Numbered from the stretch's first letter, positions 967 through 64,000 are shown. The stretch is 64,000 nucleotides of DNA from Janibacter sp. CX7 (GCF_024362365.1 NZ_CP101464.1:2294001-2358000), one strand, 5' to 3'. Notes: a model not told the origin generated them from the sequence alone. Program-made: numbers and translations.

Positions 967-1794
967 ATGCGCATCACCGTGATCTCCGGCGGGCCCGCCG
1001 GCGCCCCCTTCGTCCGCGGCCTCGCCGACCACCTCGCCACCTCGCCCGGCGCCGACGAGGTGACCGTGGTGGCCAACACCGGCGACGACATCTCGCTCGG
1101 CGGGCTGCGCCTGTCCCCCGACGTCGACGGCCTGCTCGCCGCGCTCTCCGACGTCCCGTCGACCGCCGATACCTCCGTGGTCACCGACGAGCTCGGCGCC
1201 CTCGGCGTCCTGCCGGCGTGGTTCCCGGTCGCCGACCGCGAGGTCGCCACCCACCTCGCCCGCACCGCCTGGCTGGGCCGGGGCGCCACCCCGAGCGAGG
1301 TCACCGCACGCCTGGCCGAGCGGCACGGCCTCCCGGCGAAGGGGGTCCGGCTGCTGCCGATGAGCGACGTCCCCGTCGAGACGCACGTCGTCCTCGACGA
1401 CGAGGAGGGCCAGAGCGCCGTCCACGTGCAGCAGTGGCGTCACGAGCTCGGCCGCCCCGCCGCCACGCGCTTCGTCGTCGCGGGCATGGACCGCGCCGCC
1501 GCGGCCCCCGGCGTCCTCGACGCCGTCCGCGAGGCCGACCTCGTCGTCCTCGCCCCCGGCGACCCCGTGCTGTCGATCGGCATCGTCCTCGGTGTCCCCG
1601 GCGTCCGCGATGCCCTGCGCGGCACCTCGGCGAAGATCGTCGGCGTCACCCCCGACCTCACCGACCTCGGCCCCTCCCTCGCCGCCGTCGGCCTCGAGCC
1701 CACCGCCGACGCCGTCTCCGCCCTGTACCGCGACCTGCGCGCCACCTGGCTCCCCGCCGACGCCTCCCCCGCCGACGTCCTCACGCACGCCTGA
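967..1794 (+). CDS. Short, divergent CofD/FbiA-like 2-phospho-L-lactate transferase
   Basis: Predicted 275 residues, shorter than the roughly 310-330 usual for CofD/FbiA, which transfers a phospholactate-type moiety to the deazaflavin Fo in coenzyme F420 synthesis. Recognisable blocks are TVVANTGDD, LRLSPDVDGLL, WFPVADREVATHLART, LLPMSDVPVETHV, APGVLDAVREADLVVLAPGDPVLSIG and VPGVRDAL. The N-terminal glycine loop reads SGGPAGAPFVRG instead of the usual GG(V/T)GGAK, the tryptophan/aspartate-rich segment after YTLAG is shortened, and the C-terminal SPIIGG-type segment reads TPDLTDLG. No CofE/FbiB follows. A weak -10 (GAACAT) ends 7 nt before ATG 967, whereas ATG 958 has no such support. It may be an altered or non-F420 member. 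Confidence 0.7.
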   Translation: MRITVISGGPAGAPFVRGLADHLATSPGADEVTVVANTGDDISLGGLRLSPDVDGLLAALSDVPSTADTSVVTDELGALGVLPAWFPVADREVATHLARTAWLGRGATPSEVTARLAERHGLPAKGVRLLPMSDVPVETHVVLDDEEGQSAVHVQQWRHELGRPAATRFVVAGMDRAAAAPGVLDAVREADLVVLAPGDPVLSIGIVLGVPGVRDALRGTSAKIVGVTPDLTDLGPSLAAVGLEPTADAVSALYRDLRATWLPADASPADVLTHA

Positions 1795-1815
1795 CCCGCG
1801 GGTGCAGCTGAAGGA

Positions 1816-1927
1816 GCGGACGACACCGGGGTGGCCCGACTCATGGGCGAAGCCGGCCGACGGACCGACGCACGCTGCGGGGAGACCCGCCGGCTTCGTC
1901 CTTAGGGCCACCCCGGTCGTCGTCCGC
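1816..1927. repeat. 112-bp nested inverted repeat between convergent genes
   Basis: An outer arm at 1816-1837 (ending GACACCGGGGTGGCCC) pairs with 1905-1927 (starting GGGCCACCCCGGTCGTC) with one bulge, and an inner arm GAAGCCGGC (1849-1857) pairs with GCCGGCTTC (1889-1897). It fills the gap between the CofD-like gene and the convergent glycosylase. It could act as a bidirectional terminator but is much larger than needed, so a small mobile element or structured RNA is also possible. Confidence 0.6.
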
Positions 1928-1951
1928 GACGGAGACCGATCCGACCCGGGC

Positions 1952-2878
1952 TCAGAAGCGCGTCGGGAGGTGCGTGGGCAGGGAGCGGCGCGGGCCGCGT
2001 CGGGGTCGGTGGCCGGCGGTGGCGGTGATGACGACCTGGGCCCGGTAGCGCTGACCGGCGTAGGGCTCGAGCAGCTCGGCCATGCGGGCGTCGTCGCCGA
2101 CGACGCCGTCGAGGGCGAGGGTGACGTCCTTGGCGACGTGGTAGTCGCCGAAGCTCGGTGAGTCGGCGTCGCCCAGTGCCCGCTGGGCGACCTCCGCAGC
2201 GGTCCAGACGCCGACGCCGGGGAGCGAGCGCATCCGCGCGTGGGCCTGCTCCAGCGGCAGGTCGGCGCACTCGTCGAGGCGACCGGCGACCCGCATCGCG
2301 GTGACGACGACCCGCGAGCGGGCGCCGTCGACGCCGGCGCGCAGCCACGCCCACGACGGGATCCGGGCCCACTCCGCGGCGGTCGGCGGGCAGACGAGAC
2401 CGAGCTCCTCCCCCGGCCCGGGCGCCGGCGAGCCGAAGCGCCGCACCAGCTGCCGCTGGCTGCTGAAGGCCTCGCGACCGGTGACCTTCTGCTCGAGGAC
2501 GGAGCACACGAGCATCTGGGCGACGAGCCCGTTGGCCGGGACCCGCCAGGTGCGCAGCCGCGGCCACCCACGCGCGACGAGGTCGTGGTGCGGGACGAAG
2601 CCGCTCGGGTCGTCGCGCCCCCCGACGAGGTCCGGCAGCCGGTCGAGGATCCAGTCGGCACCGTCTCCCCACGCCGAGGCGACGACCTCACCCCCTTCGT
2701 CGGTCAGGAGCAGGGTCACCGTGCCCGCCGGCGTCGTCCACGCGAACCACCAGTCGCGGCCCGCCCGGTGGCTCGTCGGGTCACCGCCACCCCGGACGAA
2801 GGGGGGCAGCACCAGTCCGAGGTCGACGGGCGCGGGCGGGCGGTGGCACCGCGTCGTCGGGTCGGGGTGGCTGGTCAC
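1952..2878 (-). CDS. DNA-3-methyladenine glycosylase II family protein (AlkA-like HhH-GPD)
   Basis: The product has about 308 residues and a helix-hairpin-helix glycosylase core: the hairpin SLPGVGVWTAAEVAQ followed by ALGDADSPSFGDYHVAKDV, whose GDYH aspartate fits the catalytic position of AlkA/HhH-GPD enzymes. These excise alkylated purines to start base-excision repair. A poorly conserved N-terminal domain precedes the core. I place the start at GTG 2878 because CACAAT (complement of 2886-2891) ends 7 nt upstream, the leaderless spacing seen across this window; an ATG at 2908 would add ten residues and leave almost no room for divergent promoters. Such genes often sit near whiB2/cofD in actinobacteria. 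Confidence 0.82.
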   Translation of the reverse strand: MTSHPDPTTRCHRPPAPVDLGLVLPPFVRGGGDPTSHRAGRDWWFAWTTPAGTVTLLLTDEGGEVVASAWGDGADWILDRLPDLVGGRDDPSGFVPHHDLVARGWPRLRTWRVPANGLVAQMLVCSVLEQKVTGREAFSSQRQLVRRFGSPAPGPGEELGLVCPPTAAEWARIPSWAWLRAGVDGARSRVVVTAMRVAGRLDECADLPLEQAHARMRSLPGVGVWTAAEVAQRALGDADSPSFGDYHVAKDVTLALDGVVGDDARMAELLEPYAGQRYRAQVVITATAGHRPRRGPRRSLPTHLPTRF

Positions 2879-2885
2879 GCCGACG

Positions 2886-2913
2886 ATTGTGCCGGTCGCA
2901 GGTGACATAGCGT
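2886..2913. promoter_or_regulatory. Divergent leaderless -10 boxes
   Basis: TAGCGT (2908-2913) ends 6 nt before the ATG at 2920 on the plus strand. On the minus strand CACAAT (complement of 2886-2891) ends 7 nt before GTG 2878. Neither gene has a ribosome-binding site, so both transcripts are predicted to begin at or next to the start codon. Confidence 0.5.
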
Positions 2914-3815: not shown

Positions 3816-4664
3816 TCAGCGCTTGCGGAAGGTCAGCAGGATGAAGGTGTAGTCGAGGTCGACCCTCGACCAGTGCACCGGGCGTTCGCTGTGCGCCAGC
3901 GTCGCGTCGTCGACGGTGCCGACGAGCTCGAGACCGTGGCGGTCGGCGAGCGCGACGAGCTCGCGGATCTCCTCGGGCGAGAAGATGTGGACCTGCGAGC
4001 CGTAGATGACCTTGCCCGTCGTGTCCGGCGGGTCCTGGTCGTAGTCGGTCGAGACGACGAGCACGCCACCGGGGCGCAGCAGGCGCGCCGACTCGGAGAC
4101 GAAGCCCTCGAGCGGCACGCCGTGCTCGATGACCGACATGCACGTGATCGCGTCGAGGTGGGCCGTCGGCAGACCCGTGTCGGTGACGTCGCCGTAGCGG
4201 AAGGCCACCCCGTCGCGGGTCACCTGCGACCCGAACTCGAGGTTGATGCCGATGAGCGAGCCGGGCGCGGCACCGAAACCGTAGAGCCGCAGCCACGGCA
4301 GCACCGGCGAGTAGCGGGCGCTGCCGGCGTCCATGACCCGCGCGCTGCGGGTGCCGTCGTCGGCGAGGTCGAGGACGGCGGCGACGGCGCCGAGGGCGTC
4401 CCAGTTCTTCGGCAGGTCACGGTGCAGCGGCAGGCGCAGGCGCTTGGCCTCGGCGACGGCCCGCCGCCACGTCGCGCCGTCGGTGAGCACGGCGGTCGGC
4501 GGCACGGTCGTCGGCGCGGGACGACCCCCCTTCGCCCGGGCCTCGAGCCGTCGCTGGACGGCGACCCGACCCCACAGGAGGTGCTCGGCCCCGCGCTTGG
4601 CGACGGCCAGCAGACGCCCGCCGGGGGGCGCCGCGACCTGGCCGGAGGTCGTGGGATCGGACAT
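3816..4664 (-). CDS. Class I SAM-dependent methyltransferase
   Basis: Predicted 282 residues. The Rossmann core includes ARVMDAGSARYSPVLPWL (motif I region), CMSVIEHGVPLEGFVSESARLLRPGGVLVVSTDY (motifs of the class I methyltransferase fold) and a terminal YTFILLTFRKR strand. The acceptor is unknown. The ATG at 4662-4664 has AAGGAG 8 nt upstream and lies 2 nt beyond the stop of the UPF0104 gene, so translation is probably coupled. As the last gene of a four-gene minus-strand glycan operon it may methylate a surface sugar or a related intermediate; this is inference from context. Confidence 0.82.
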   Translation of the reverse strand: MSDPTTSGQVAAPPGGRLLAVAKRGAEHLLWGRVAVQRRLEARAKGGRPAPTTVPPTAVLTDGATWRRAVAEAKRLRLPLHRDLPKNWDALGAVAAVLDLADDGTRSARVMDAGSARYSPVLPWLRLYGFGAAPGSLIGINLEFGSQVTRDGVAFRYGDVTDTGLPTAHLDAITCMSVIEHGVPLEGFVSESARLLRPGGVLVVSTDYDQDPPDTTGKVIYGSQVHIFSPEEIRELVALADRHGLELVGTVDDATLAHSERPVHWSRVDLDYTFILLTFRKR

Positions 4665-5689: not shown

Positions 5690-7587
5690 CGGCGTCGCAG
5701 GGTGAGCCGGACGAGGGCGTGCGCCGCGTCGGGGTCGGCGCTCACGCGCGAGGCGTGCCGCAGCCGGGCCGTGAGGTCTCCGTCGACGTCGCCGACGAGG
5801 GCGAAGCCGACGTCGGCCGCGCGCGCGATGACCGCCCGCAGGTCGGCCGCTCCGCCGATGACGTCGTCGCCCTGACCACCCACGGGCAGGGTCAGGCACA
5901 GCAGGCCGCCGGAGCGCAGCGCCCACCCGGCCTGGGTGAAGGTCTCGTCGATGTCGGCGGCGGAGGCGTCGTCCGGGTGCAGCCGGGTGACGACGTCGAG
6001 GGTCGCGGTGTCGACGTCGAGCAGCGTCATCGACGAGCGGGCGCCGGTGAGCTCGACCTCGACCGGCGCGTAGCCGGCGGCCCGGGCCCAGCGGCCGAAG
6101 GGGGACCCGCTGCCGGATGCGTCGATGATCAGGGCCTCGCGCCGGCCCTCGTCGCGCATGCCGATGAGCACCTCGAGGGCACCGAGCGCGGCCCACTCGC
6201 TGATCTCGTCGGCGCCGCGCGGCAGGCCGAGGTCGCGGGCCAGCTCGCGGGCGCGGCGGGCCTCGTCGTCGTGGGCGAGGACGTCGGTGGCGCGCAACCA
6301 CGAGGGGAAGTCGCCGGGGGTCAGCTCGAGGCGCGGGCGCCGCCGGTCGCGGGCGAGCCGGGCGAGGGCGACGACGTCCTCGGCGCGGTCGGCGACGCGC
6401 CCCAGGCGCGACTGGCGTCGCACGGGCGCGGCGAGCGTCGGGTCGGCGAGGACGTCGGGGGCGCTCAGGGCCTCGAGGGTGCCGACGTAGCGGGCCCAGG
6501 GGGCCTGCAGGTCGGGTGGGGTGACCCCGGCGCGCAGGCGGGCGACCTCGTCGGGGTCGCGCAGCCGCTCGAGCACGGCGACGATCGCGTCCTCGTCCTC
6601 GGGCGGCACGAGGTGCCCGTCGACGCCGTCGTCGACCTGGTCGCCGAAGGTCCCCACGTCGGAGGCGAGGACGGCCAGCCCGTGCTGGTGCGCGAGCAGG
6701 ACATTTTGGCTCGCGGTGGCGCTGCGATAGGTGAGGGAGAGCACGTCGTGCTGCGCGAGCAGCGGGGCGATCCGCTCGGCGGGGACGTAGCCGCTGTGGA
6801 TCTGCACCCGGTCGCGCAGGCTGCGGTGCTCGGCCAGCCGCCGGATCTCGTCGCCGGCGTCGCCCCAGATCTCCCCTGCGACGGTGAGCGTCACGTCGGG
6901 CACGCGGAGCATCGCCCGCATGAGGACGTCGATGCCCTTGTAGCCCCGCACGAGGCCGAGGGCGAGCAGCCGGGCCGGGCCGCGGTGCTCGGGGCGCTCG
7001 ACGGGCTCGCCGCCCGGCAGGTGCGGCGGCAGGTCGGTGACGACGACGTGCTCGGCGTCGAGCTCGCGGGCGAGCCGGGACTGCTCGGCGGAGTGGACGA
7101 CGACCGCGTCGACCCGGCGGAAGAAGGTGCGCATGAGCGCCGCGTCACCGGGGTGCGGCTCGTGCGGCAGGACGTTGTGCGCGATGACGACGCTGCGCGG
7201 CCCGCGCCCGGTCATCGCGGTGCGCCCGACGCCGGCGGCCCGCAGCAGGGTGAGGTGCAGCGGCACGACGGGCGGGATGACGTGCACGACGACGATGATG
7301 TCGACGTCGCGCAGCCGCCGCCCGGCCCGCACGAGCGAGTCGGGGCGGGCCCACGACAGCGCCCGCACCGTGCGGGGGAAGGGCGGCACGTCCGGGTCCC
7401 CCGAGCTCGGCACGGACTGCTCGCCGGGGTAGAAGAAGCTCGGGTAGAGGTGGCTCCACGACACGAGCGTCACGTCGTGACCGGCCGCCTCGAGCTCGTG
7501 GGCGAGGGTCGTCGTGTGCGAGGCGACGCCGCCCTTGTAGGGGTGCGTCGGCCCGACGACCGCGATCTTCAACGTGGCGTCATCCAT
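5686..7587 (-). CDS. GT4 glycosyltransferase with a C-terminal methyltransferase-like domain
   Basis: The 633-residue product has two parts. Residues 1 to about 385 form a GT-B glycosyltransferase of family 4: the glycine loop VGPTHPYKGGVASHTTTLAHEL, then LLALGLVRGYKGIDVLMRAM and GLAVLASDVGTFGDQVDDGVDGHLVPPEDEDAI, which binds the sugar nucleotide. Residues about 430-633 resemble a Rossmann fold (LEVLIGMRDEGRREALIIDASGSG, LRSGGLLCLTLPVGG) reminiscent of a degenerate SAM methyltransferase. TAGGCT lies 9 nt before the ATG at 7587, so the gene may also have its own promoter inside the operon. The donor and acceptor sugars cannot be read from the sequence. Confidence 0.85.
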   Translation of the reverse strand: MDDATLKIAVVGPTHPYKGGVASHTTTLAHELEAAGHDVTLVSWSHLYPSFFYPGEQSVPSSGDPDVPPFPRTVRALSWARPDSLVRAGRRLRDVDIIVVVHVIPPVVPLHLTLLRAAGVGRTAMTGRGPRSVVIAHNVLPHEPHPGDAALMRTFFRRVDAVVVHSAEQSRLARELDAEHVVVTDLPPHLPGGEPVERPEHRGPARLLALGLVRGYKGIDVLMRAMLRVPDVTLTVAGEIWGDAGDEIRRLAEHRSLRDRVQIHSGYVPAERIAPLLAQHDVLSLTYRSATASQNVLLAHQHGLAVLASDVGTFGDQVDDGVDGHLVPPEDEDAIVAVLERLRDPDEVARLRAGVTPPDLQAPWARYVGTLEALSAPDVLADPTLAAPVRRQSRLGRVADRAEDVVALARLARDRRRPRLELTPGDFPSWLRATDVLAHDDEARRARELARDLGLPRGADEISEWAALGALEVLIGMRDEGRREALIIDASGSGSPFGRWARAAGYAPVEVELTGARSSMTLLDVDTATLDVVTRLHPDDASAADIDETFTQAGWALRSGGLLCLTLPVGGQGDDVIGGAADLRAVIARAADVGFALVGDVDGDLTARLRHASRVSADPDAAHALVRLTLRRR

Positions 7588-7619: not shown

Positions 7620-9761
7620 TCACCGGGCGACACGACCCGTCCACACGGTGAGGTGCAACGGGTCCAGCCGCTCGGGGCGGGTCGTCAGCACGTGGGGGTC
7701 CTCCATGAGGGTCGTGTCGAGCACCGTGCGCACGTCCGTCGCGCCGATGTCGTCCAGGCTGGCGCGCTCCCGGTGGGCCACGAGGAGCAGCCGGCCACCC
7801 CGCTCGCGCACCCGCTCGTCGAGCCGCTCGGCTGCGGCCCGCACCTGCTGCGGGTCGTCGCGCAGCCGGCCCGTCGTCGCGATGCTCGGCACGCCGCACA
7901 TGCCGCGAGTGATCTGGGTCCAGTGGTTGACCGCCCAGTCGTCGACGGCGAGGACGACGTCGCCCGGCGCGAGGGCGTCGCAATAGGTCCGGGCGGCCGC
8001 CAGTCCCCCGTCCTCGACGCGCTCCGTGCGGTGCGGCCAGGTCGCCAGGGCCGTGGGCACGGCGGTGACGGCGAGCGCGACGGCGAGGACCGCGCCGCCG
8101 ATGGCTCGCCCGTGCCGGGCACCGGCCCACCGTCCGGCCCACACGGCGCCGGCGACGGCCAGGACGATCGCGAGCGGCAGCGCGACGAGCAGGCGCCGGT
8201 CCGCCCACGGGTGGTCGGGGGTGATCCCCGGGCGCCACAGCGTGAGCAGCGTCGAGCCGGTCGTGACGACGAGGGCCGGACCCCACGACGGGAGGGGTAC
8301 CCCCTTCGCCCACCAGGTACCGAGGGCACGCCACAGGCCGGCGAGGACGACGAGCGAGATGACCACGGCCGCGGGTCCGACCCACCAGGCGAGCCAGTCG
8401 ACGGAGTGCTCGGCATAGGTGCGGCCGCCGTCGACGGGCAGGCCCAGCTCGGCCTGCATCCGGGCGACGTACATCGCGCCGGGGTCGCGGGGGTCCTGCC
8501 GCACCGTCATGACGAGCGGGCGAAGGGAGAGCCCCACCCCGACGAGGACGACGAGGGCCGGGAGGAGCACCGGCAGGCTCGACGTCACCGCGACCGGCAG
8601 CGACCAGCCGCGCCGCGAGCGCCGTAGCAGCCACCAGCACAGCAGGGACATGAGGACGACGAGCCCGACGAGCGGGACGAGGGAGGCGCCGATCTCGCCG
8701 AGGTAGCGCCAGCTCATCGCCCCGGCGACGGCGAAGCCGGCGAGCGTCGTCCCGATGGCGCCGACGAGCAGGTGCCGCCCCCAGCCACGCCCGCGGGCGA
8801 GGAGGGCGGCGGCGACGGGGATGAGCAGCATCGTCTCGCGCAGGGCGTCGATGCGCACGATCGAGGTGCCGCCGACGAGCGCGCCCGCGAGCACCGCCGC
8901 TCCGGCCCACGCCCCCGAACCCCGCAAGACCCTAGGGTTTTGCGATGTCGTGGTCCCGGAACGTCGCAAGACCCTGGGGTCTTGCGACGTGTGGGGCTCG
9001 TCGGCGGCGCGGGCGAGGAGCGTCAGGGCGAGGAAGCCCGCGGCCAGGGTCAGCCCCGCCAGCGGCTCGGAGTAGGTCGAGCGCGAGGTGTGCAACCACG
9101 GGAAGCAGAGCCCGACGAGCACAGCGGCCACCGGCGCCGCCCACGGCGCGACCGTCCGGGCGACGAGCAGCCCGATCGCGAGCAGGGCGAGACCTCCGAG
9201 GACGGCCGGCGCCCACAGGGTCGGGGTCGCTCCCCCGGCCCACCACGGCAGCGAGTAGACGAGCGCGGGGCCGGGCATGAACTGCGGCTGGACCGTCGGG
9301 TCCTGCGGCGACCCGGTCTCGTAGAAGGCCGGCGACTCCAGGGTCAGCCCCTCGTCGGCGAGCGTCTGCGGTCCGCCGATCGTCTCGGGGTCGATCGCGA
9401 CCGGCCGCACCCCGGTCTCGGCGAGGTAGATCGTCGCCTGCAGATAGCTCGCGGAGTCGCGCCGCGGCATGACCTGCTCGGAGTGCGTCACGCCGGTCCA
9501 CACGGTGACGGCGAGCACCCCGACGACGAGGGCCGCGGCCGGCGCAGGACGAAGGGGGGTCCCCCCGGGCCGCGGGAGCAGCGCCGACAGGCGCCAGGCG
9601 AGGGCCGCGGCGATGAGCGCGGTGAGCAGGCCCACGAGCGGCACCCAGGCACCCAGCCAGGCGATGACCGCCCCGGCGAAGCCGAGGAGGAGGACCCACA
9701 GCGCCGCGGTGACGACGAGACGCTCGAGCGGCGGGGCGAGATCACGCGGGGCGGGGTCCAC
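7620..9761 (-). CDS. Large polytopic membrane protein, possible GT-C glycosyltransferase
   Basis: Predicted 713 residues with about 12 hydrophobic segments and a periplasmic-type C-terminal domain of roughly 170 residues. HSEQVMPRRDSASYLQATIYLAETG fits the first extracytoplasmic loop of GT-C (ArnT/PMT-like) transferases, where an acidic residue is catalytic; the family assignment is tentative. The start GTG 9761 is chosen because TAGCGT (complement of 9769-9774) ends 7 nt upstream; a longer frame to 9875 would overlap the divergent gene. Around residues 255-280 an in-frame palindromic repeat pair (8923-8990) adds two PRVLR peptides. First gene of the minus-strand glycan operon. Confidence 0.72.
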   Translation of the reverse strand: MDPAPRDLAPPLERLVVTAALWVLLLGFAGAVIAWLGAWVPLVGLLTALIAAALAWRLSALLPRPGGTPLRPAPAAALVVGVLAVTVWTGVTHSEQVMPRRDSASYLQATIYLAETGVRPVAIDPETIGGPQTLADEGLTLESPAFYETGSPQDPTVQPQFMPGPALVYSLPWWAGGATPTLWAPAVLGGLALLAIGLLVARTVAPWAAPVAAVLVGLCFPWLHTSRSTYSEPLAGLTLAAGFLALTLLARAADEPHTSQDPRVLRRSGTTTSQNPRVLRGSGAWAGAAVLAGALVGGTSIVRIDALRETMLLIPVAAALLARGRGWGRHLLVGAIGTTLAGFAVAGAMSWRYLGEIGASLVPLVGLVVLMSLLCWWLLRRSRRGWSLPVAVTSSLPVLLPALVVLVGVGLSLRPLVMTVRQDPRDPGAMYVARMQAELGLPVDGGRTYAEHSVDWLAWWVGPAAVVISLVVLAGLWRALGTWWAKGVPLPSWGPALVVTTGSTLLTLWRPGITPDHPWADRRLLVALPLAIVLAVAGAVWAGRWAGARHGRAIGGAVLAVALAVTAVPTALATWPHRTERVEDGGLAAARTYCDALAPGDVVLAVDDWAVNHWTQITRGMCGVPSIATTGRLRDDPQQVRAAAERLDERVRERGGRLLLVAHRERASLDDIGATDVRTVLDTTLMEDPHVLTTRPERLDPLHLTVWTGRVAR
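8923..8990. repeat. Pair of GCAAGACCC palindromes inside a coding sequence
   Basis: An imperfect 22-nt palindrome (8923-8944) and a 30-nt palindrome (8961-8990) are separated by 16 nt. The shared core is GCAAGACCCTAGGGTYTTGC, also found twice at 28207-28280. Here the pair sits in frame inside the membrane-protein gene and is translated as two copies of a peptide with the core PRVLR. Confidence 0.8.
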
Positions 9762-12264: not shown

Positions 12265-12455
12265 ATCCCAGACATCACAGCCAGTCACTCTTATTCCACG
12301 AGTCACACAAGACACGCCAGCCCCACTGAGCTAATTACGTCCCTGTGGTTTGGGTGCGGCGGCGACCCCGGCCGTCGACGACGAGTGGCGCGGGAGCCCC
12401 CTTCGCCCCGGGATCGGTGTGGCGGGGCCCCATCCGTGGCCACGTGGCGAGGGAC

Positions 12456-12468: not shown

Positions 12469-13290
12469 ATGGACAAGGTCGTCTCCTCACCAGCCGAGGC
12501 CGTCGCGGACATCCCCGACGGTGCCACGCTCGCGGTGGGCGGCTTCGGGCTCTGCGGGATCCCGAGCGTGCTCATCGCCCAGCTGCAGGCGAAGGGGGTG
12601 AAGGAGCTCGAGTGCGTCTCCAACAACTGCGGCGTCGACGACTGGGGCCTGGGCCTGCTCCTCCAGGGCGGCCAGATCCGCCGGATGGTCTCCTCCTACG
12701 TCGGGGAGAACAAGGAGTTCGCCCGGCAGTACCTCTCCGGTGAGCTCGAGGTCGAGCTGACCCCCCAGGGCACCCTGGCGGAGAAGCTGCGCGCCGGCGG
12801 CGCCGGCATCGCCGGCTTCTGGACCCGCACGGGCGTCGGCACCCAGATCGCCGACGGCGGCCTGCCGTGGCGCTACGACGACGCGGGCAACATCGCGATC
12901 GCCTCCCCCGCCAAGGAGACCCGCAGCTTCGCCGTCGCCTCGCGTCAGGCCGACGGCACGACGGTGACCGAGGACCACGAGTTCGTCCTCGAGGAGGCCA
13001 TCGCCACCGACTTCGCCCTCGTGCGCGCCTGGAAGGGCGACCGTCACGGCAACCTCGTCTTCCGGACGACCTCGCGCAACTTCAACCCCCTGTGCGCCAT
13101 GGCCGGGCGGTTGACGGTCGCCGAGGTCGAGGAGCTCGTCGAGCCGGGCGAGCTCGACCCCGACGCGATCCACCTGCCCGGCATCTACGTCCAGCGGGTC
13201 GTGCCCCTGACCCCTGAGCAGGCCGCCGACAAGCGCATCGAGAAGCGCACCGTGACGACGAAGACCGACGCGACGAAGGAAGGTGCCTGA
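12469..13290 (+). CDS. scoA: 3-oxoacid CoA-transferase subunit A
   Basis: The 273-residue alpha subunit of a succinyl-CoA:3-ketoacid CoA-transferase. It carries the family segment [21 protein letters not shown] near the N-terminus, then [36 protein letters not shown] and the ending IYVQRVVPL. With subunit B it moves CoA from succinyl-CoA to acetoacetate or another 3-oxoacid, letting ketone bodies or 3-ketoacids be used. ATG 12469 is 7 nt after TACGGT, so the operon is probably leaderless; a longer frame upstream would cross the promoter region. The basic C-terminal tail is longer than usual. Forms an operon with scoB. Confidence 0.93.
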
Positions 13291-41838: not shown

Positions 41839-41846
41839 CGGCATGA

Positions 41847-41886: not shown

Positions 41887-41902
41887 CCGTGCGTGGCGCT
41901 GA

Positions 41903-45040: not shown

Positions 45041-45120
45041 GACGAGGCGGCGCCTCCGCAGCGCGAGCCGGCGAGGCCTGGGTCACGCCCCCTTCGCCCC
45101 GACCTCACGGCCACGGCCGG

Positions 45121-47987: not shown

Positions 47988-48416
47988 ATGACAAGCCGGA
48001 CGAAGGGGGCGACTCCCCCGAGCGCAGATGCTCCCGACGAGCACGCGCGGACGTGGACGATCCGCGAGGTCGCCGACGAGTTCGGCATCACCACGCGCAC
48101 GGTCCGGCACTACGAGGACATCGGGCTCATCTCGCCCGAGCGGCAGGGCACGACGCGCCTCTTCCACCGGCGCGACCGCACCCGGCTGTCTCTGGTGCTG
48201 CGCGGCAAGCGGCTCGGCTTCCCGCTCGACGAGATCGCCAAGATCATCGACCTCTACGACGCACCGCGCGGTCGCCGCAGCCAGCTCGAGTACGTGCTCG
48301 GCCAGATCGACGAGCGCCGCGCGGACCTGGAGCAGCGGCGGCGCGACATCGACGACGCGCTCGCCGAGCTCGACACCTTCGAGCAGCGCTGCCGCACCGA
48401 GCTCCGCACGCGCTGA
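47988..48416 (+). CDS. MerR family transcriptional regulator of the acyl-CoA operon
   Basis: The 142-residue MerR protein has TWTIREVADEFGITTRTVRHYEDIGLISPERQGTTRLFHRRDRTRL (winged helix), GKRLGFPLDEIAKIIDLYD, and a long coiled-coil dimer helix up to residue 142. No metal-binding cysteine cluster is present. The sequence fits the acyl-CoA-responsive LiuR-like group that controls branched-chain acid catabolism. It diverges from the acyl-CoA dehydrogenase gene with a 24-bp palindrome between them. An N-terminal tail of about 20 residues is unusual; a later start is possible. Confidence 0.87.
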   Translation: MTSRTKGATPPSADAPDEHARTWTIREVADEFGITTRTVRHYEDIGLISPERQGTTRLFHRRDRTRLSLVLRGKRLGFPLDEIAKIIDLYDAPRGRRSQLEYVLGQIDERRADLEQRRRDIDDALAELDTFEQRCRTELRTR

Positions 48417-53477: not shown

Positions 53478-53550
53478 GGCCACTACCCCTTCGTCCAGAT
53501 CTGCAGAGGATCTCCAGATCTCCCACCGGGGATCCACCGGTGGGGCTCCC

Positions 53551-54261: not shown

Positions 54262-56894
54262 ACCGCTCCGCTCCACTACTCGAGCTCACCTCGATCCGCA
54301 CCCGCCTCGCCGTCCTCGTCGGCGTGAGCGTCGTCGTCGCGGCGGTCGTCGGCACGGTCGGCACCGATGCCGGGGTCCCCCTGTGGATCGGCCTGCCCGC
54401 GACGATCGGCCTCGCCCTCGTCGTCACCCGCTGGCTGGCGACCGGCATGACGACCCCGCTCACCCAGATGACCGAGGCCGCACGGCGGATGGCGAAGGGG
54501 GACTACGGCGCCCGGATCACGACGTCGAGCCAGGACGAGGTCGGTGAGCTGGCCCGTGCCTTCGCGAGCATGGCCGCCGAGCTGGAGCAGGGCGAGGAGC
54601 ACCGACGGCGTCTCGTCGCCACCGTCGCCCACGAGCTGCGCACGCCCCTGTCGGCGCAGCAGGCCCTGCTCGAGAACCTCGCCGACGGCGTCACCACCCC
54701 CGACGAGGCGACCCTGCGCGCCGCCCTCGCCCAGTCGGAGCGCCTCGGGTCGCTCGTCACCGACCTGCTCGACCTCTCCAGGCCCGACGGCAGGGGAATC
54801 CCCCTCTCCCCCAGCCGGATCCGCGTCGGTGACCTGCTCGACGACGCCATCGGCGAGACCACCCTCCAGGGCCGGGACGTCGCACTCGTCGCCGATGTCG
54901 AGCCCGCCGACCTCGTCGTCACCGGCGACCGCGCGCGCCTCGCCCAGGTCACCGCCAACCTCCTCGACAACGCGGTGCGGCACAGCCCGAGCGGCGGCAC
55001 CGTCACCCTCACCGCCCGCGCCAGCGACGACGCGTGGACCCTCACCGTCGCCGACGACGGACCCGGCCTGACCCCGGAGCGGGCGGAGCGGCTCTTCCAC
55101 CGCTTCCGTCCCGGCGGGGACGAAGGGGGTGGCACCGGCCTCGGCCTCGCCATCGCCGCGTGGGTCGCCTCGATGCACGGCGGCACCATCCGGGCGCTGC
55201 CCACCCCACTCCCTGAGGAGCGAGTCCGCGCAGCGGGCGAGCGTCTCGAGGGGTCCGGGGCCCGGCTCCAGCTCCGCCTCCCGCTCACCCCGCCGACCTC
55301 CCCTTCGCCCGCACCGCTCACCACCCAGGAGACCGTCATGACTGCTGCACAGCCCGCGCACGACCCCCTTCGAGGCTCGGCCGCGAACGGCCTCGCACCG
55401 GGTCCTGAGGAGGCGCGCCAGCGCCGTCTCGAAGGGCAGGGAACGGGACTCTCGTTGTCGCGGTGGTGGCCCGAGCGGATCACGCAGGGGCAGCCGCGGC
55501 TGCTGCTCGCCGCGCTCGCCGTCGGCCTGCTCGCCGCGATCCTGCTGCCGGGCAACGCGATCGGGCTCGGGCTGCTCGTCGTGCTCACCGCCGGAGGTGC
55601 GGCCCTGTGGCTCGCCTCGGCCCGCCGGGCGAAGCCGTGGTCGTGGGTCACCGCCGCCCTGGCCCTCCCCCTCGGCCTGACGACGGTCCTGCGTGACGAC
55701 CCGGTGATGAGCTTCTTCGCCGTCGCCGTCGCCGGGGTGCTCGCCGCCGCCGCGTGCACCGACGCGCGCACGGTCACCGGCATGATCGCCTCGGTCATCG
55801 CCTGGCCGCTCTCCGCGCTGCGCGGGCTGCCCCTGCTCGACCGGACGATCCGCACGCTCGCCCGCCGCGGCAGCGCGTGGTCGGTGCTGCGCACCGGGGT
55901 CGTCAGCCTCGCGCTGCTCCTCGTCTTCGGCGGGCTGCTCTCCTCGGCCGACGCCGTCCTCGGCTCCTGGGCCTCGGCCCTCGTGCCCGACATCAGCGAC
56001 ATGGCGATCTTCCGCGTCTTCGTGCTCGTCTTCTTCGCCGGCGTCACGCTCGCCGGTCTCTACCTCGCGATCAACCCGCCGACCGTCGACGGGGCACGCC
56101 TGTCGCCTCGCATCCCGGAGCGCGAGTGGCAGGTCCCGCTCGGCGTCGTCATCGCGATCTTCGTCGCCTTCGTCGTCGCCCAGGCCGCGGCGGTCGTCGG
56201 CGGGCACGACTACGTCGTGCGCACGGCGGGCGTGACCTATGCCGAGTCGGCCCGGCAGGGCTTCGGCCAGCTCACCGTCGCCACCGCGCTCGTCCTGCTG
56301 CTCGTCGCCGGGGTTCGAGCGCTCGGCCGCACGAGCACCGACCGCGACCGCCGGGTCATGACCGCGATGAACGCGACCCTGTGCGTCCTCACCCTGCTCG
56401 TCGTCGCCTCCGCGCTGCGCCGCATGGCGCTCTACCAGGACGCCTACGGCTACACGACGCTGCGGATCAACGCCGACCTCTTCGAGATCTGGCTCGGGCT
56501 CGTCGTCCTCGCGGTGCTCGTCTCCCTCTTCACCCCGACCCGGCGCTGGCTCGGCCGCGCGGTCCTCGTCGCGGCCGCCGTGCTCACCATCGTCGGCACC
56601 GTCGGCAACACGAGCGCCTGGGTCGCCGACCGCAACATCGAGCGGTGGCAGTCCACGGGCAAGATCGACACCTGGTACCTCAGCAGCCTGCCCGCCGACG
56701 CCGTGCCGACCATCGAGTCGAGCGCCCTGCCCGCGCACATCAAGCAGTGCGCGCTGTCGATGCACCAGGTGTACGGCGCCGGCGACGAGGACACCCTCGC
56801 CGGATGGAACCTCGCCCGCTCCCGCGCCGACGAGATCCGGCAGCGCTACGACGACCCGACCCGGTGCACCGACTCCCGCGGCTGGTCGAGGTGA
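54258..56894 (+). CDS. Sensor histidine kinase fused in frame to a DUF4153/DUF4173-like membrane protein
   Basis: One frame of 878 codons. Residues 1 to about 360 form a kinase: two TM helices (14-32, 38-58) with almost no loop, HAMP (about 59-111), HisKA with His125 in [16 protein letters not shown], and ATPase motifs [33 protein letters not shown] and [11 protein letters not shown]. No stop follows: the frame runs into MTAAQPAH at 55338, which has its own AGGAG, and then about 11 membrane helices. A palindromic repeat (55210-55253) lies in the last part of the ATPase domain, between GGTIRA and [10 protein letters not shown]. In relatives these are normally two genes, so a stop has probably been lost. 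Confidence 0.8.
55210..55253. repeat. Palindromic repeat inserted in the kinase coding sequence
   Basis: TCCCTGAGGAGCGAG at the left pairs with GCGTCTCGAGGGG at the right, the same family as at 18664-18780. It is translated in frame as [15 protein letters not shown] between the conserved GGTIRA and GARLQL segments of the kinase. Confidence 0.75.
55338..56894 (+). CDS. DUF4153/DUF4173-like polytopic membrane protein (internal start within the kinase frame)
   Basis: From ATG 55338 the product has 518 residues. AGGAG lies 7 nt upstream, which supports independent initiation. An N-terminal soluble stretch of about 50 residues includes another palindromic repeat peptide ([11 protein letters not shown]). 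About 11 hydrophobic segments follow, and a conserved C-terminal soluble part begins around [18 protein letters not shown]4153/DUF4173 proteins often accompany two-component systems and may sense or modulate the kinase; no enzymatic role is known. The same bases are also read as part of the fused kinase frame. Confidence 0.75.
55364..55438. repeat. Second palindromic repeat (inverted pair) in the membrane-protein N-terminus
   Basis: CCCCCTTCGAGGCTCGGCCG on the left is roughly the inverse of the right part, which contains CTGAGGAGGCG and CGTCTCGAAGGG, so two inverted units of the same family face each other, as in REPIN elements. Translated in frame. Confidence 0.6.
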
Positions 56895-56902: not shown

Positions 56903-56935
56903 CCCCTTCGCCTCCGCAGGGGGTGGGCGAAGGGG
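56903..56935. terminator. Terminator made of inverted CCCCTTCG motifs
   Basis: CCCCTTCGCC (from 56903) and GGCGAAGGGG (to 56935) form the stem; flanking C and G tracts extend it to 13 bp. It ends the two-component operon before accA3. Confidence 0.7.
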
Positions 56936-61065: not shown

Positions 61066-61144
61066 CCTCGGCTCCTTCGTCGCGGGCCGCGGATCGGCCC
61101 CCTTCGACCCTAGCGGCGCACCGATGCCAGCGCGCCGGCTGCGC

Positions 61145-62560
61145 TCACTCCCCGTGCAGGGGGTGCAGCCGTCGGGCTGCCTCGGCGAGGGTGCCGGTGA
61201 GCGAGGGGTAGACGGTGAAGGTCGAGGCGACCTGGTCGACGGAGAGCCTGTTCTGCACGGCGATGGCCACGGGGAAGATCAGCTCCGAGGCGCGCGGCGC
61301 GACGACGACCCCGCCGAGCAGCGTGCCGGTCCCCCGGTAGGCGAAGAGCTTGACGAAGCCCTCCTCGATGCCGAGCATCTTGGCCCGCGGGTTGCGCGAG
61401 AGCGGCATCATCACGGCCTCCACGTCGGAGTTGTCGGCCGCGTCGGCGGCGCTCATGCCGACCGTCGCGATCTCGGGATCGGTGAAGACATTGGCCGACA
61501 CCGCCGAGAGCCGAAGGGGGGTCACCGCGTCGCCCAGAGCGTGCGCCATGGCCGTGCGGCCCTGCATCGCCGCGACGGAGGCGAGCGCGAAGACGCCGGT
61601 GCAGTCGCCCGCCGCGTAGATGCCGCGGACCGAGGTCCGCGAGACACGGTCGGTGACGATGTGGCCGGAGTCGCTGAGCTCGACGCCGACCTCCTCGAGA
61701 CCGATGTCGCGGGTGTTGGGCACGGCGCCGACGGCGATGAGCACGTGGCTGCCCTCGACCTCACGGCCGTCCTCGAGGGTGACGACGACGCCGTCGCCGC
61801 GCCGCTCGGCGGAGGCCATGCGCGAGCGGTTGAGCACCGTCATGCCCCGGCGGCGGAAGACGTCCTCGATGACCGCGGCCGCGTCCTGGTCCTCGCCCGG
61901 CAGGACGAGCTCGCGCGAGGAGATCAACGTGACGTCGGTGCCCAGGCCGAGGTAGGCCTGCGCGAGCTCGGCGCCGGTGACGCCCGAGCCGACGACGATG
62001 AGCTTGTCGGGGATCTCGGGCAGCTCGTAGATCTGCTGCCAGGTGAGGATCCGCTCACCGTCGGGCTGCGCCGTCGGCAGCACCCGCGGGGTGGCGCCCG
62101 TGCTCAGCAGGACGACGTCGGCGGCGATCGTCTCGGTGCCCCCGTCGGGACCCTCGACGACGACCTCGCTCGGCGAGGCGAGCCGGCCGGTGCCGGGCAC
62201 GACCCGCACCCCGACCTCCTGCAGCCGGGCGGTGATGTCGGCGGACTGCGCGGCCGCGAGGTTGCGCACCCGGCGGTTGATCGCGTCGAGCTCGGCGACC
62301 GTCTCGGTCGCGACGTCGCCCTCGTGGTCCTCGAGGTGCACGCCGAGGTCGGAGGCGGTCTCGATGCCGCCGAGGTAGTCGGCCGTCGCGATGAGGGTCT
62401 TGCTCGGGACGCAGTCGGTGAGCACCGCGGCCCCGCCGATGCCGTCCCGGTCGACGACGGTGACCGACGCCCCCAGGTGCGCGGCCACGAGGGCCGCCTC
62501 GTAGCCGCCCGGGCCGCCGCCGAGGATCACAACAGAGTTCGTTCGAGTCACGCCTCCCAT
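61145..62560 (-). CDS. lpdA: NAD(P)H-quinone dehydrogenase, LpdA type (flavoprotein disulfide reductase family)
   Basis: The 471-residue protein has FAD loop VVILGGGPGGYEAALVAAHLGASV, then GGAAVLTDCVPSKTLIATADYL, where the first redox cysteine is replaced (AVLTDC), as in mycobacterial LpdA, which reduces quinones. The NAD loop is LIVVGSGVTGAELAQAYLGLG; RGIYAAGDCTGVFALASVAAMQGR binds FAD. The dimer domain lacks the catalytic His-Glu pair. ATG 62560 or GTG 62551 are possible; 62560 is chosen, as a GGAGG overlapping GTG 62551 is too close. Divergent from punA through overlapping -10 boxes, in the same region as Rv3303c-Rv3307. Confidence 0.9.
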   Translation of the reverse strand: MGGVTRTNSVVILGGGPGGYEAALVAAHLGASVTVVDRDGIGGAAVLTDCVPSKTLIATADYLGGIETASDLGVHLEDHEGDVATETVAELDAINRRVRNLAAAQSADITARLQEVGVRVVPGTGRLASPSEVVVEGPDGGTETIAADVVLLSTGATPRVLPTAQPDGERILTWQQIYELPEIPDKLIVVGSGVTGAELAQAYLGLGTDVTLISSRELVLPGEDQDAAAVIEDVFRRRGMTVLNRSRMASAERRGDGVVVTLEDGREVEGSHVLIAVGAVPNTRDIGLEEVGVELSDSGHIVTDRVSRTSVRGIYAAGDCTGVFALASVAAMQGRTAMAHALGDAVTPLRLSAVSANVFTDPEIATVGMSAADAADNSDVEAVMMPLSRNPRAKMLGIEEGFVKLFAYRGTGTLLGGVVVAPRASELIFPVAIAVQNRLSVDQVASTFTVYPSLTGTLAEAARRLHPLHGE

Positions 62561-62573
62561 CCAACCACCCTTG

Positions 62574-62581
62574 TAGATTGC
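62574..62581. promoter_or_regulatory. Overlapping divergent -10 boxes for lpdA and punA
   Basis: TAGATT (62574-62579) ends 6 nt before GTG 62586 on the plus strand. CAATCT (complement of 62576-62581) lies on the minus strand, with a predicted short leader before lpdA. They share four bases. Confidence 0.5.
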
Positions 62582-62585
62582 GCCT

Positions 62586-63404
62586 GTGACCCAGACCGCT
62601 GACACCCAGGACCCCTTCGCCCTCGCCCGCGACGCAGCGGCCGTCATCGCCGAGCGCACCGGCGTCGCGACCCACGACGTCGCCCTCGTCCTCGGCTCCG
62701 GCTGGGGCCAGACCGCAGACCGGGTCGGCCGCACCGTCGCCACCGTCGAGCAGGCCGAGGTGCCCGGCTTCACCGCGGCGGCCGTCGCCGGCCACTCCGG
62801 GCAGCTGCGCTCCGTCGAGATCGCCGACACCGGCCGCCGGGCGCTCGTCTTCGGCACCCGCACGCACTTCTACGAAGGGCGTGGCGTGCGCGCCGTCGTC
62901 CACGCGGTGCGCACGGCGGCGGCCGCCGGCTGCCGCGCGATCGTCCTCACCAACGGCTGCGGCGGGCTGCGGCCGAAGTGGGGCCCGGGCACCCCGGTCC
63001 TCATCAGCGACCACATCAACCTCACGGCGACCTCGCCGATCGAGGGCGCCAACTTCGTCGACCTCACCGACCTCTACTCCCCCCGCCTGCGCGAGCTGGC
63101 CCGCGAGGTCGACGCCGACCTCGACGAGGGCGTCTACGCGCAGTTCCGCGGACCGCACTACGAGACCCCCGCCGAGGTGCGCATGGCCGGCATCCTCGGC
63201 GCCGACCTCGTCGGCATGTCGACGACGCTCGAGGCGATCGCCGCCCGCGAGGCCGGGCTCGAGGTCCTCGGCGTCTCGCTCGTCACCAATGCCGCCGCCG
63301 GCATCAGCGAGACCCCGCTGGCGCACGACGAGGTCGTCGCCGCCGGTCAGGCCGCTGCCGAGCGGTGCGGCACCCTCCTCGCCAGCATCGTCGCCAAGAT
63401 CTGA
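62586..63404 (+). CDS. punA: Purine-nucleoside phosphorylase
   Basis: The 272-residue PNP-I enzyme has [125 protein letters not shown]. It splits purine nucleosides with phosphate in salvage. Start GTG 62586 is leaderless from TAGATT. The phosphosugar mutase gene follows after 8 bp, which could use the ribose-1-phosphate product; the pair is conserved in mycobacteria. Confidence 0.94.
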
Positions 63405-63412
63405 GGACGCCC

Positions 63413-64000
63413 ATGAGCTACACCTCCCGCCACGCCGCCGACGTCTCCGACGACCTGCTCACCGCCGCGCGCGAGTGGGCTGCCGACGACCCCGACCCGG
63501 CGACCCGGGGGGAGCTCCTGACGGTCGTCTCCGCTGCCGAAGGGGGGAACCCGGCCGCCGTCGCCGACCTCGCCGACCGCTTCACCGGGCTGCTCCAGTT
63601 CGGCACCGCCGGCCTGCGCGGCGCCCTCGGCGCCGGCCCCCATCGCATGAACCGGGCCGTCGTCATCCGCGCCGCCGCGGGCCTCGTGGCCCACCTGCAG
63701 GAGGCGAGCTCCGCTCCCTTCGTCGTCATCGGCCGCGACGCGCGGTACAACTCCGACGCTTTTGCCATCGACACGGCGGCGGTCGTCACCGCCGCCGGCG
63801 GGCGCGCGGTGCTGCTGCCGGAGCCGCTGCCGACGCCGGTGCTCGCCTTCGCCATCCGGCACCTCGGCGCCGACGCGGGCGTCATGGTCACGGCCAGCCA
63901 CAACCCGCCTCAGGACAACGGCTACAAGGTCTACCTCGGCGACGGCAGCCAGATCGTGCCGCCGAGCGATGCGCAGATCGCGGCGAAGATCGACCAGGTC
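63413..64000 (+). CDS. Phospho-sugar mutase (PmmB/PgcA-like), N-terminal part
   Basis: The first 196 codons are present and the frame runs off the edge. Motifs are [21 protein letters not shown] (substrate loop), [40 protein letters not shown] and the catalytic serine [20 protein letters not shown]. This is the alpha-phosphohexomutase superfamily, phosphoglucomutase/phosphomannomutase class II, or phosphopentomutase in this context. AGGA lies 6 nt before ATG 63413. Follows punA, so ribose-1-phosphate to ribose-5-phosphate conversion is a possible role. Confidence 0.9.

Follow-up and report, generated by a model that had tools for sequence, protein, structure and literature searches.

Why does a single octamer, CCCCTTCG, recur so often in the chromosome of Janibacter sp. 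CX7, and what could keep it there? For the window, by which we mean the whole 64,000-nt stretch of DNA that was analysed, a sequence-only reading had reported an approximately tenfold over-representation on both strands, and our recount reproduced its figures exactly. We found 58 exact copies (32 on the + strand and 26 on the - strand) where independent bases lead one to expect 5.5 and a window-based third-order Markov model 7.6, which corresponds to an excess of about 10-fold or 7.6-fold, respectively. Of these, 47 are extended to the longer form CCCCCTTCG (25 +, 22 -), and a further 15 sites carry the variant CTCCCTTCG (4 +, 11 -). Across the whole 3.23-Mb genome we counted 2,588 copies of CCCCTTCG (1,315 and 1,273 on the two strands) against 124 of the reversed octamer, which served as control. 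An 864-kb sample, composed of 40 stretches of 20 kb and the window, contained 681 copies, when compared to 104 or 144 expected from third- or fourth-order Markov models, and 499 copies of CCCCCTTCG against 26 expected. Genome-wide, the octamer is thus far above Markov expectation.

The motif is sharply defined. When single bases of CCCCCTTCG were substituted in the counts for the genome of CX7, enrichment was kept only for C-to-T at positions 1 and 2 (9.3-fold and 8.7-fold), and every other substitution gave 1.9-fold or less, with the exception of one that was seen twice against 0.5 expected. The refined motif, YYCCCTTCGYC, occurs 1,852 times in the genome against 12 for its control, and positions beyond this 11-mer contribute less than 0.1 bit of information each.

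As the sequence-only reading had stated, copies lie both within and between genes: 42 of the 58 window copies fall in genes predicted by a simple in-house gene caller and 16 fall between them. Copies on the + strand are found in + genes at 1005..1012, 33801..33808 (the accE example of that reading), 37980..37987, 39696..39703, 43528..43535, 51631..51638, 55300..55307, 55365..55372 and 62612..62619, and in - genes at 2692..2699, 4527..4534, 8301..8308, 16319..16326, 23487..23494, 25954..25961, 27212..27219, 28739..28746, 31386..31393, 34531..34538, 35915..35922, 45324..45331, 50250..50257 and 50448..50455. Copies on the - strand are found in + genes at 1337..1344, 12590..12597, 35189..35196, 48001..48008, 48861..48868, 54493..54500, 55121..55128 and 63538..63545, and in - genes at 2797..2804, 6096..6103, 9550..9557, 15574..15581, 18894..18901, 27038..27045, 27455..27462, 29140..29147, 42934..42941, 44973..44980 and 61512..61519. 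Intergenic copies are located at 12398..12405, 17576..17583, 35030..35037, 45089..45096, 53486..53493 and 61099..61106 on the + strand and at 19773..19780, 23973..23980, 25879..25886 and 36362..36369 on the - strand; the remaining intergenic copies form inverted pairs (see below). In the 864-kb sample the density was 1,961 per Mb between genes and 649 per Mb within them, an approximately three-fold difference.

It is conceivable in principle that codon preference, codon-pair preference or base composition produces the word, and CCC-TTC is indeed the customary Pro-Phe pair (437 of 446). However, the 501 in-gene copies of the sample compare with 97.8 ± 9.2 after synonymous shuffling, while the reversed control octamer was unaffected (30 against 31.8). 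The motif is also built with the rare codons GAA, CCT and CTT, and it is denser between genes. The unusual codons and multiple reading frames pointed out previously recur throughout the sample, in which the codon pairs GAA-GGG (Glu-Gly; 137 observed against 10.1 expected), CCT-TCG (50 against 7.0), CCC-CTT (56 against 6.4) and AAG-GGG (Lys-Gly; 192 against 123) are all in excess. We conclude that synonymous shuffling, rare-codon use and intergenic density refute an origin of the motif in codon usage or base composition, the probability of which we regard as negligible.

With a dnaA-like gene at chromosome position 1, the copies divide between the strands 167/168 in the first chromosome half and 149/139 in the second, in agreement with the earlier remark that strong strand bias is missing; neither an origin-terminus strand bias of the KOPS type nor a leading-strand skew was detected in either half. 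Coverage of the chromosome is even, with 9-26 copies per 20-kb stretch (n = 40; mean 15.6, variance 14.2).

The arrangement of neighbouring copies depends on their orientation. Among the 49 pairs in the sample that lie 60 bp or less apart, 48 are inverted. In the window, such intergenic pairs are formed by the copies at 24064..24071 (+, left arm) and 24088..24095 (-, right arm), at 56903..56910 (+, left arm) and 56928..56935 (-, right arm), and at 41847..41854 (-, left arm) and 41879..41886 (+, right arm). The last pair makes up a terminator-like stem-loop (41841..41892) between the convergent ORFs 40627-41838 (+) and 41903-43267 (-), and the segment 41836-41900 has a folding energy of -50.4 kcal/mol (z -6.16), a stability that none of 200 shuffles attained. 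At distances of 60-1,000 bp we counted 152 same-orientation but 242 opposite-orientation pairs (p 7e-6); copies in the same orientation avoid each other over approximately 1 kb, whereas opposite copies do not. The word CGGCATAC, which is abundant in other genomes of the family, obeys the same rule (45 same against 98 opposite, p 1e-5, 11 genomes; in G022, 27 against 50, p 0.01). No such avoidance was evident for CGGCATCC (40 against 45), CGGCGTAC (27 against 32) or the variant TCCCTTCG (21 against 22), and it was not significant in the sister genus g33 alone (16 against 23). The avoidance between same-orientation copies suggests a motif reader that proceeds to one side of its site, where a nearby second copy in the same orientation would add nothing. 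Such directional spacing is compatible with a Chi-like site as well.

Some related organisms share this word, and other genera of the family have different words, CGGCATAC, CGGCATCC and CGGCGTAC, at a comparable density. YYCCCTTCGYC occurs 599-1,852 times in the 16 genomes of the genus, CX7 included, against 5-20 for its control, and CCCCTTCG is common throughout the 16 genus genomes that were searched, as it is in g33. Among 148 genomes of the family, 18 contain 1,553-3,180 copies of CCCCTTCG (all 15 of g1 and all three of g33) and the other 130 contain 84-396; none of 228 genomes from other families of the order exceeded 457, and abundance of this kind was not found in a phylum-wide draw of genomes either. 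A top octamer at log10 E ≤ -4 was obtained for 16 of 34 family genomes, and it was always CCCCTTCG, CGGCATAC, CGGCATCC, CGGCGTAC or a form of these shifted by one base. Of 20 family genomes, 11 contain 1,142-2,982 copies of CGGCATAC, when compared to 7-71 in the other nine and at most 177 in the 228 genomes outside the family. For CGGCGTAC, 10 of the 148 genomes have 1,125-4,185 copies, while its reversed control has 114-310. The word differs even between species of one genus, g26, and in several family genomes no tested word stands out. Aligned by eye, CGGCATAC, CGGCATCC, CGGCGTAC and CCCCCTTC have C..C.T.C in common, a candidate for an inner core of the dialects that may also be due to chance. 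In a tree of 20 genomes, g1 and g33 are sisters (support 0.961) and G087 groups with G038 (0.974); the node joining G049 to G087 + G038 and/or g1 + g33 has a support of 0.000, and the CGGCATAC genomes are not monophyletic.

Individual sites are retained between species: of 129 comparisons with a congener, 56 showed an identical copy, against 691 of 3,020 for octamers of the same composition, although in the most distant congener, G002, retention was not clearly above the control (3/16 against 58/374). The intergenic preference varies between dialects, for which the ratios come from small samples. The intergenic/genic density ratio is 6.3 in g33 and approximately 2 for CGGCATAC (six genomes) and for CGGCATCC; it is slight for CGGCATAC in G022 (1,545 against 1,326 per Mb, 1.2-fold), and no preference was found for CGGCGTAC (554 against 929 per Mb, 0.6-fold, with seven intergenic copies).

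A search for competence and pilus genes, suggested by the sequence-only reading, was positive. The genome of CX7 encodes ComEA- and ComEC-type proteins side by side, an assignment that rests on Pfam domains and adjacency, since the more specific NCBIfam profiles fell short of their cut-offs at 88.6 of 152 bits (ComEA) and 188.5 of 190 bits (ComEC/Rec2), and one tad locus was read, with a TadA-family ATPase and a TadE minor pilin above cut-off. A ComEC domain is present in 147 of 148 family genomes and a TadE-like pilin in all 148 (142 above cut-off). Since com and tad genes are as common in family genomes in which no tested word stands out, their presence does not discriminate within the family. 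No gene for a motif reader was found. The type IVa pilus marker PilM exceeded the cut-off in only one of 148 family genomes, which makes a ComP-like pilus reader unlikely.

Taken at the level of sequence, these data lead us to propose that YYCCCTTCGYC is probably a DNA uptake sequence of the genus, with dialects, that is upheld by biased transformation; the motif, whose core is common to the sister genus, would then likely be one dialect of a family-wide set. Transformation-competent cells would bind free DNA via a surface protein that reads sequence and belongs to the Com/Tad machinery, the parts of which may include ComEA, a ComEC channel and a Flp/Tad pilus whose minor pilin is of the TadE type. 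Fragments bearing the motif would enter and recombine more often, and biased transformation would spread chance copies wherever they are compatible with proteins and signals. An altered reader would favour another word, and thousands of sites would follow with time, giving rise to dialects. The data agree with what is expected of uptake sequences: a short word of the usual length (9-12 bases) that recurs hundreds to thousands of times, much more often than predicted, both strands used with no strong replication-strand bias, intergenic preference and inverted terminator-like hairpin pairs (for CCCCTTCG), dialects tracking phylogeny apart from the G049 node and the CGGCATAC genomes, and competence machinery in the form of Pfam ComEA/ComEC domains and tad genes. 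The resemblance to DUS and USS that had been drawn from the window holds as a likeness in density, use of both strands, absence of origin-terminus bias and the mixture of genic and intergenic copies. Neither of the two outcomes that the sequence-only reading had named as refuting it, a genome-wide count close to the Markov prediction or an explanation by codon-pair preference, was obtained. Uptake-like traits beyond those named there are the words of sister genera, inverted hairpins, com/tad genes, retention and spacing.

The main rival to the uptake-sequence reading is a Chi-like site, at which a helicase-nuclease of the RecBCD, AdnAB or AddAB type acting on intracellular broken ends would be switched by one orientation of a motif whose word varies by lineage. 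Chi sites are short, abundant, asymmetric and species-specific, and their words differ between lineages, as do the words described here between genera; their directional action fits the same-orientation spacing, which is expected of any directional reader. On the other hand, known Chi sites are skewed to the leading strand, a bias found in neither chromosome half here, and the three-fold enrichment between genes and the inverted hairpin pairs are not Chi traits. That no tested word is prominent in several family genomes would also be odd for a repair signal. We therefore consider a Chi-like site unlikely, if worth serious attention.

The remaining alternatives appear far less plausible. One is a HIP1-like by-product, in which mismatch repair with a bias, or the action of a DNA methyltransferase, would ratchet the genome towards a functionless word, with new enzymes leading to new words; according to a study on cyanobacteria, HIP words shift with methyltransferase specificity and are perhaps an epiphenomenon (PMC4390886). 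HIP1 resembles the present case as a single octamer at extreme abundance that is replaced by alternative words in some lineages. In contrast to the asymmetric YYCCCTTCGYC and CGGCATAC, however, HIP words are palindromes linked to methyltransferases, and a mutational ratchet would predict neither inverted hairpin pairs nor the mutual exclusion of like-oriented copies over approximately 1 kb; we hold such a by-product to be very improbable. A site for a chromosome-organising or segregation protein, such as a nucleoid protein or an FtsK/KOPS-like factor, would account for the even coverage. However, the site is not KOPS-like because origin-terminus polarity is absent, and swapping thousands of sites in sister genera would call for a driving force of a kind not expected from a structural site, which leaves this option with a slim chance. 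The strong hairpins of inverted pairs, including that between convergent ORFs, could indicate that the copies are mostly transcription terminators or RNA elements. As has been described for DUS (PMC3630211), a terminator role of these pairs looks secondary. With 501 of 681 sampled copies within genes, on both strands, and just 49 neighbouring pairs within 60 bp, copy position speaks against a mainly terminator function, which we judge barely credible.

As an uptake sequence, the motif can be set beside known systems. USS of the Pasteurellaceae occur at a density of about one copy per kb, as do the copies in CX7. USS have a 9-base core and two main types in one family, comparable to the word types seen here, and AT-rich flanking segments (PMC12616744), unlike the present motif with its nearly uninformative flanks (<0.1 bit per position past the 11-mer). 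Neisseriaceae DUS are short contiguous words in thousands of copies, located at permissive intergenic sites, with inverted terminator-like pairs and several dialects that track phylogeny (PMC3630211; PMC12616744), all of which is mirrored here. They differ in their unrelated sequence, in belonging to another phylum and in having the minor pilin ComP as reader, where the Janibacter genome has ComEA/ComEC-type genes, a Tad/Flp locus and no PilM above cut-off, and an uptake role that is putative. In the same phylum, Micrococcus luteus, which likewise has comEA/comEC and tad genes, requires the tad genes for transformation; it has two tad clusters against the one read in CX7, and the terms 'uptake sequence' and 'sequence-specific' are absent from that paper (PMC4322843).

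Our literature search found no report of an uptake-sequence motif in this phylum. We lean, with some reserve, towards a third independent family of DNA uptake sequences and the first in Gram-positives, which would comprise four dialects or more within a single family of actinobacteria, with a dialect switch inside one genus, and a Com/Tad reader acting one way over approximately 1 kb, recorded in the genome as same-orientation avoidance for two words. To our knowledge, uptake tags for own-kind DNA have so far been known only in two Gram-negative families; if the proposal is true, such a DNA-import tag system would also exist in an actinobacterium.

The window spans bases 2,294,001-2,358,000 of a single-contig genome of 3.23 Mb. 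The octamer CCCCTTCG occurs 58 times in it (32 copies on the plus strand and 26 on the minus strand) and its variant CTCCCTTCG 15 times, exactly as counted by eye in the sequence-only reading. Extending the count to the whole genome, as that reading had proposed, we found 2,588 copies of CCCCTTCG (1,315 and 1,273 on the two strands) versus 124 of the reversed word. Such reversed patterns serve as a composition control and not as a Markov null; for the latter we used an 864-kb sample composed of 40 spaced 20-kb stretches and the window (G+C 72.0%), in which 681 copies were seen versus 104 and 144 expected under third-order and fourth-order Markov models, respectively. In the flanks of 679 copies, the preceding base is C in 73% and T in 19%, the following base is a pyrimidine in 78% and the next one C in 76%, and information outside these flanking positions is below 0.1 bit per position. 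When the core CCCCCTTCG was changed base by base, C-to-T kept the word enriched at the first (127 vs 13.7 expected) and second place (178 vs 20.5), and all other changes fell to 0 to 1.9 times expectation, save one with 2 seen vs 0.5. Because of these flank preferences and the tolerance of C-to-T alone at places 1 and 2, we define the word of the window's genome as YYCCCTTCGYC. This 11-mer is present 1,852 times in that genome (reversal 12), and across the 16 genomes searched in its genus, itself among them, the counts range from 599 to 1,852 (reversal 5 to 20). We state the initial YY for this genome alone, as in sister genus g33 (80 kb of one genome, G047) position 1 of CCCCCTTCG allows A or T and position 2 does not allow T. 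Transposed elements were rejected as the source of the copies, since the flanks show no similarity past the 11-mer.

The suggestion that the pattern is not simply codon bias was borne out with a simple gene caller written for this analysis (800 ORFs, 89% coding). CCCCTTCG is found 501 times in genes (649 per Mb; 267 copies on the sense and 234 on the antisense strand) and 180 times between genes, where it is denser (1,961 per Mb), and the reversed word has densities of 39 and 33 per Mb, respectively. Synonymous-codon shuffling that preserved the proteins (20 shuffles) left 97.8 ± 9.2 copies of the 501, which rules out codon bias as the cause, and yielded 31.8 copies of the reversed word compared to 30 actual ones. 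Rare codons are used to spell the word, with GAA-GGG found 137 times vs 10.1 expected, CCT-TCG 50 vs 7.0 and CCC-CTT 56 vs 6.4.

Copies are spread over the chromosome with a mean of 15.6 and a variance of 14.2 per 20-kb stretch. The longest gap free of CCCCTTCG in the sample is 6.7 kb, compared to about 8 kb expected at random, and the second longest (6.5 kb, G+C 58%) covers the 16S and 23S rRNA genes (stretch L050, 6619-11859), with one copy in the 5S gene at its edge (L050 6714). Genes recognised by sequence as dnaA, dnaN, recF, gyrB and gyrA sit at the start of the contig, so that the two chromosome halves approximate the replichores. Plus and minus copies number 167/168 in one half and 149/139 in the other; the lack of strong strand bias noted earlier thus holds for each half, and KOPS were rejected on this basis. 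Among the 49 neighbouring pairs at most 60 bp apart, 28 are in minus-plus and 20 in plus-minus order and one is direct. One inverted pair (window 41,847/41,879) lies between two convergent ORFs and folds to -50.4 kcal/mol (z -6.16). Transcription termination as the main role was rejected on positions, given that 501 of the 681 sampled copies are genic and that close pairs number 49.

The spacing of copies depends on their relative orientation. Against 200 randomisations that held genic and intergenic copy numbers per stretch fixed, same-orientation pairs were depleted at 8-60 bp (1 vs 17.4 expected), 60-150 bp (19 vs 27.4), 150-300 bp (28 vs 41.4), 300-600 bp (38 vs 77.3) and 600-1,000 bp (67 vs 99.6), and in three bins past 1,000 bp reached 115 vs 121.8, 140 vs 118.8 and 216 vs 226.8. 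For opposite pairs, the count exceeded expectation within 60 bp (49 vs 18) and stayed close to it at longer range. Between 60 and 1,000 bp, 152 same-orientation and 242 opposite pairs were found (p = 7e-6), a same-orientation share of 39% compared to 48-64% for the 18 other octamers of similar abundance (600-760 copies). Gaps below 500 bp were likewise scarce among the first 100 forward copies of genomes G000 (10 vs 22.6; this list partly overlaps the sample) and G001 (6 vs 14.7). The same rule is followed by CGGCATAC, a word of other genera of the family, with 45 same vs 98 opposite pairs across 11 genomes (p = 1e-5) and 27 vs 50 in G022 alone (p = 0.01). It was absent in our samples of CGGCATCC (40 vs 45), CGGCGTAC (27 vs 32) and the variant TCCCTTCG (21 vs 22), and was not significant in g33 alone (16 vs 23). 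Pooling the congeners gave 30 vs 59, a result that we did not rely upon because the loci taken from the six species are homologous and the counts vary with distance (11 vs 7 at 60-300 bp). Since CCCCTTCG and CGGCATAC obey one spatial rule, our data suggest that one kind of directional reader stands behind both words.

All 16 genomes of the genus, the window's own among them, are rich in CCCCTTCG (1,198-2,588 copies). In a survey of 148 genomes from 48 genera of the family, 15 of the genus and three of g33 carry 1,553-3,180 copies and the remaining 130 carry 84-396. The word is not abundant in 228 genomes from the other families of the order (maximum 457), and in a phylum-wide draw of 296 genomes, 292 of them from outside the family, the maximum was 926, in an 8.6-Mb genome. 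Among related genera, g33 shares the abundant word and several others of the family carry different ones. No octamer passed log10 E -3.0 in one locus from Desulfovibrio and five from actinobacteria (the latter about 21 kb each), an amount of sequence too small to deny such words to other families.

We then scanned octamers blindly in 34 genomes from 30 genera of the family (20-80 kb each, threshold log10 E <= -4). The top octamer passed in 16, and it was always CCCCTTCG, CGGCATAC, CGGCATCC, CGGCGTAC or a one-base-shifted form. The other 18 had no octamer at this threshold, some of them represented by too little sequence; scans of 20 kb overlook weaker words (as in G038, G039 and G087), making 'none' from 20 kb a weak statement. 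Some second-ranked octamers also passed with a 2- to 5-fold excess, for example GTCGGTGA in G016 and GTCGCCGA in G047, and may reflect coding composition. By whole-genome count, CGGCATAC occurs 1,142-2,982 times in 11 of 20 family genomes and 7-71 times in the other nine (13 in G000), with a maximum of 177 among the 228 genomes outside the family. The degenerate pattern CGGCATMC, the background of which is raised by the common codon pair GGC-ATC (520 copies in G000, 13 of them CGGCATAC), reaches 5,476 in G022 (reversed control 677). CGGCGTAC reaches 1,125-4,185 copies in 10 of the 148 family genomes (G038, G039, G049, G057, G063, G077, G083, G087, G101 and G106; reversed control 114-310), an arbitrary dividing line given that G128 (1,011), G127 (870), G118 (865), G104 (785) and G034 (752) follow. 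The dominant word differs even between species of genus g26, a natural dialect switch: G040, G096 and G077 carry 1,949, 4,562 and 600 copies of CGGCATMC and 374, 177 and 1,463 of CGGCGTAC, respectively. A tree of 20 genomes built on LeuS, ComEC and LexA places the window's genus and g33 as sisters (0.961), and likewise the CGGCGTAC genomes G087 and G038 (0.974), the latter labelled 'none' in the tree though it has 2,216 copies genome-wide. G049 adjoins this pair (support 0.000), and genomes with CGGCATAC are dispersed over the tree. Aligned by eye only, the four words have C..C.T.C in common. In G035 (genus g21), CGCATACC/CCGCATAC is enriched in stretch L067 (9 vs 0.8 in 20 kb) and is possibly a further dialect, and in stretch L066 of G031 a second octamer, CCCACCAA, accompanies CGGCATCC (11 vs 0.6) and drops out of the top octamers when more sequence is pooled.

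Searching for com and Tad genes, as had been proposed, we found in the window's genome a comEA-type gene, with SLBB and helix-hairpin-helix domains, adjoining a comEC-type gene with a Competence domain, with the stricter NCBIfam models for ComEA and ComEC/Rec2 below cut-off (the latter short by 1.6 bits), as well as a tad locus. The products of this locus are an ATPase of the TadA family and a minor pilin of the TadE family, which both pass their cut-offs, along with two T2SSF proteins and an Flp-like protein of 63 aa (DUF4244) that has a G/MTTAEY site. The ComEC domain is present in 147 and a TadE-like pilin in 148 of the 148 family genomes (142 over cut-off), and their presence does not tell genomes that have an enriched word from those that lack one. 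PilM was discarded as a type IV pilus marker, as 94 of the 95 matching genomes (of 148) fall below cut-off; at three such loci that we inspected, the match is presumably an MreB-like gene, judging by sequence and neighbours. We also dropped a gene of about 205 aa that lies beside comEA in six of 20 loci and seemed dialect-linked; judging by a sequence motif, it is probably a PlsY-like acyltransferase. The com and tad genes make transformation plausible, not proven. In Micrococcus luteus, transformation is reported to require the tad genes (PMC4322843).

Two ORFs and a repeat in the same DNA are recorded here. The 1104-aa ORF at window 53580-56894 (+) combines HAMP, HisKA and HATPase_c domains with DUF4153 behind them, a seemingly unusual domain order for a histidine kinase, and the 727-aa ORF at window 13997-16180 (-) matches SpoIID and cell-wall-binding (CWB2) domains. 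A palindrome of about 32 bp, approximately AACYCYGCAARACCCTAGGGTYTTGCRRRGTT, is represented by 24 CCCTAGGG cores in the 864 kb, 23 of them intergenic, and often forms tandem pairs 42 or 32 bp apart (sites include window 8930, 28219 and 28261; L018 7138 and 7170; L020 6773 and 6815; L055 6037 and 6079); the cores at L019 3079 and L055 13528 are without outer arms. ACCCTAGGGT was not found in 56 kb of each of six congeners nor in 60-116 kb of five other family genomes, and the palindrome looks like a species-level REP-type repeat.

To assess retention, three loci were aligned to their counterparts in six congeners, at 75-84% nucleotide identity. The motif was unchanged in 56 of 129 comparisons, versus 691 of 3,020 for control octamers of equal composition, for which codon position was not matched; in G002, the congener furthest away, there was no clear difference (3/16 vs 58/374). 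Both-strand abundance, a sharp sequence and permissive positions, together with hairpin pairs, lineage dialects and competence genes, match features reported for the DNA uptake sequences of Neisseriaceae (DUS) and Pasteurellaceae (USS) (PMC3630211, PMC12616744). The exchange of thousands of sites for another word in sister genera would come naturally to biased transformation and is hard for a structural or repair signal. Uptake sequences can reportedly accumulate by drive alone, as the title of one paper has it. The main competing explanation is a Chi-like site; this would be directional too and in this respect also fits the spacing of copies, but it is disfavoured by the lack of skew between replication strands and by the higher density between genes.

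An uptake-type motif had not been known to the sequence-only reading in this group, and the open-licence literature, in the portions available, likewise gave no actinobacterial report of an uptake sequence (including PMC6370729 and PMC10526031, the latter stating that reports of such sequences are lacking for mycobacterial species). Searching text for four of the octamer strings gave nothing useful among the matches listed. If the uptake reading is true, it would represent a third evolution of self-DNA recognition, this time in Gram-positive bacteria of high G+C content whose family has a Tad-type system. The 48 sequenced genera would then supply natural dialect switches, and the reader could be found by co-variation. 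Orientation-dependent spacing offers a genome-wide test of the direction in which DNA is processed from the motif and, as a practical lead, addition of the motif may ease transformation of these organisms.
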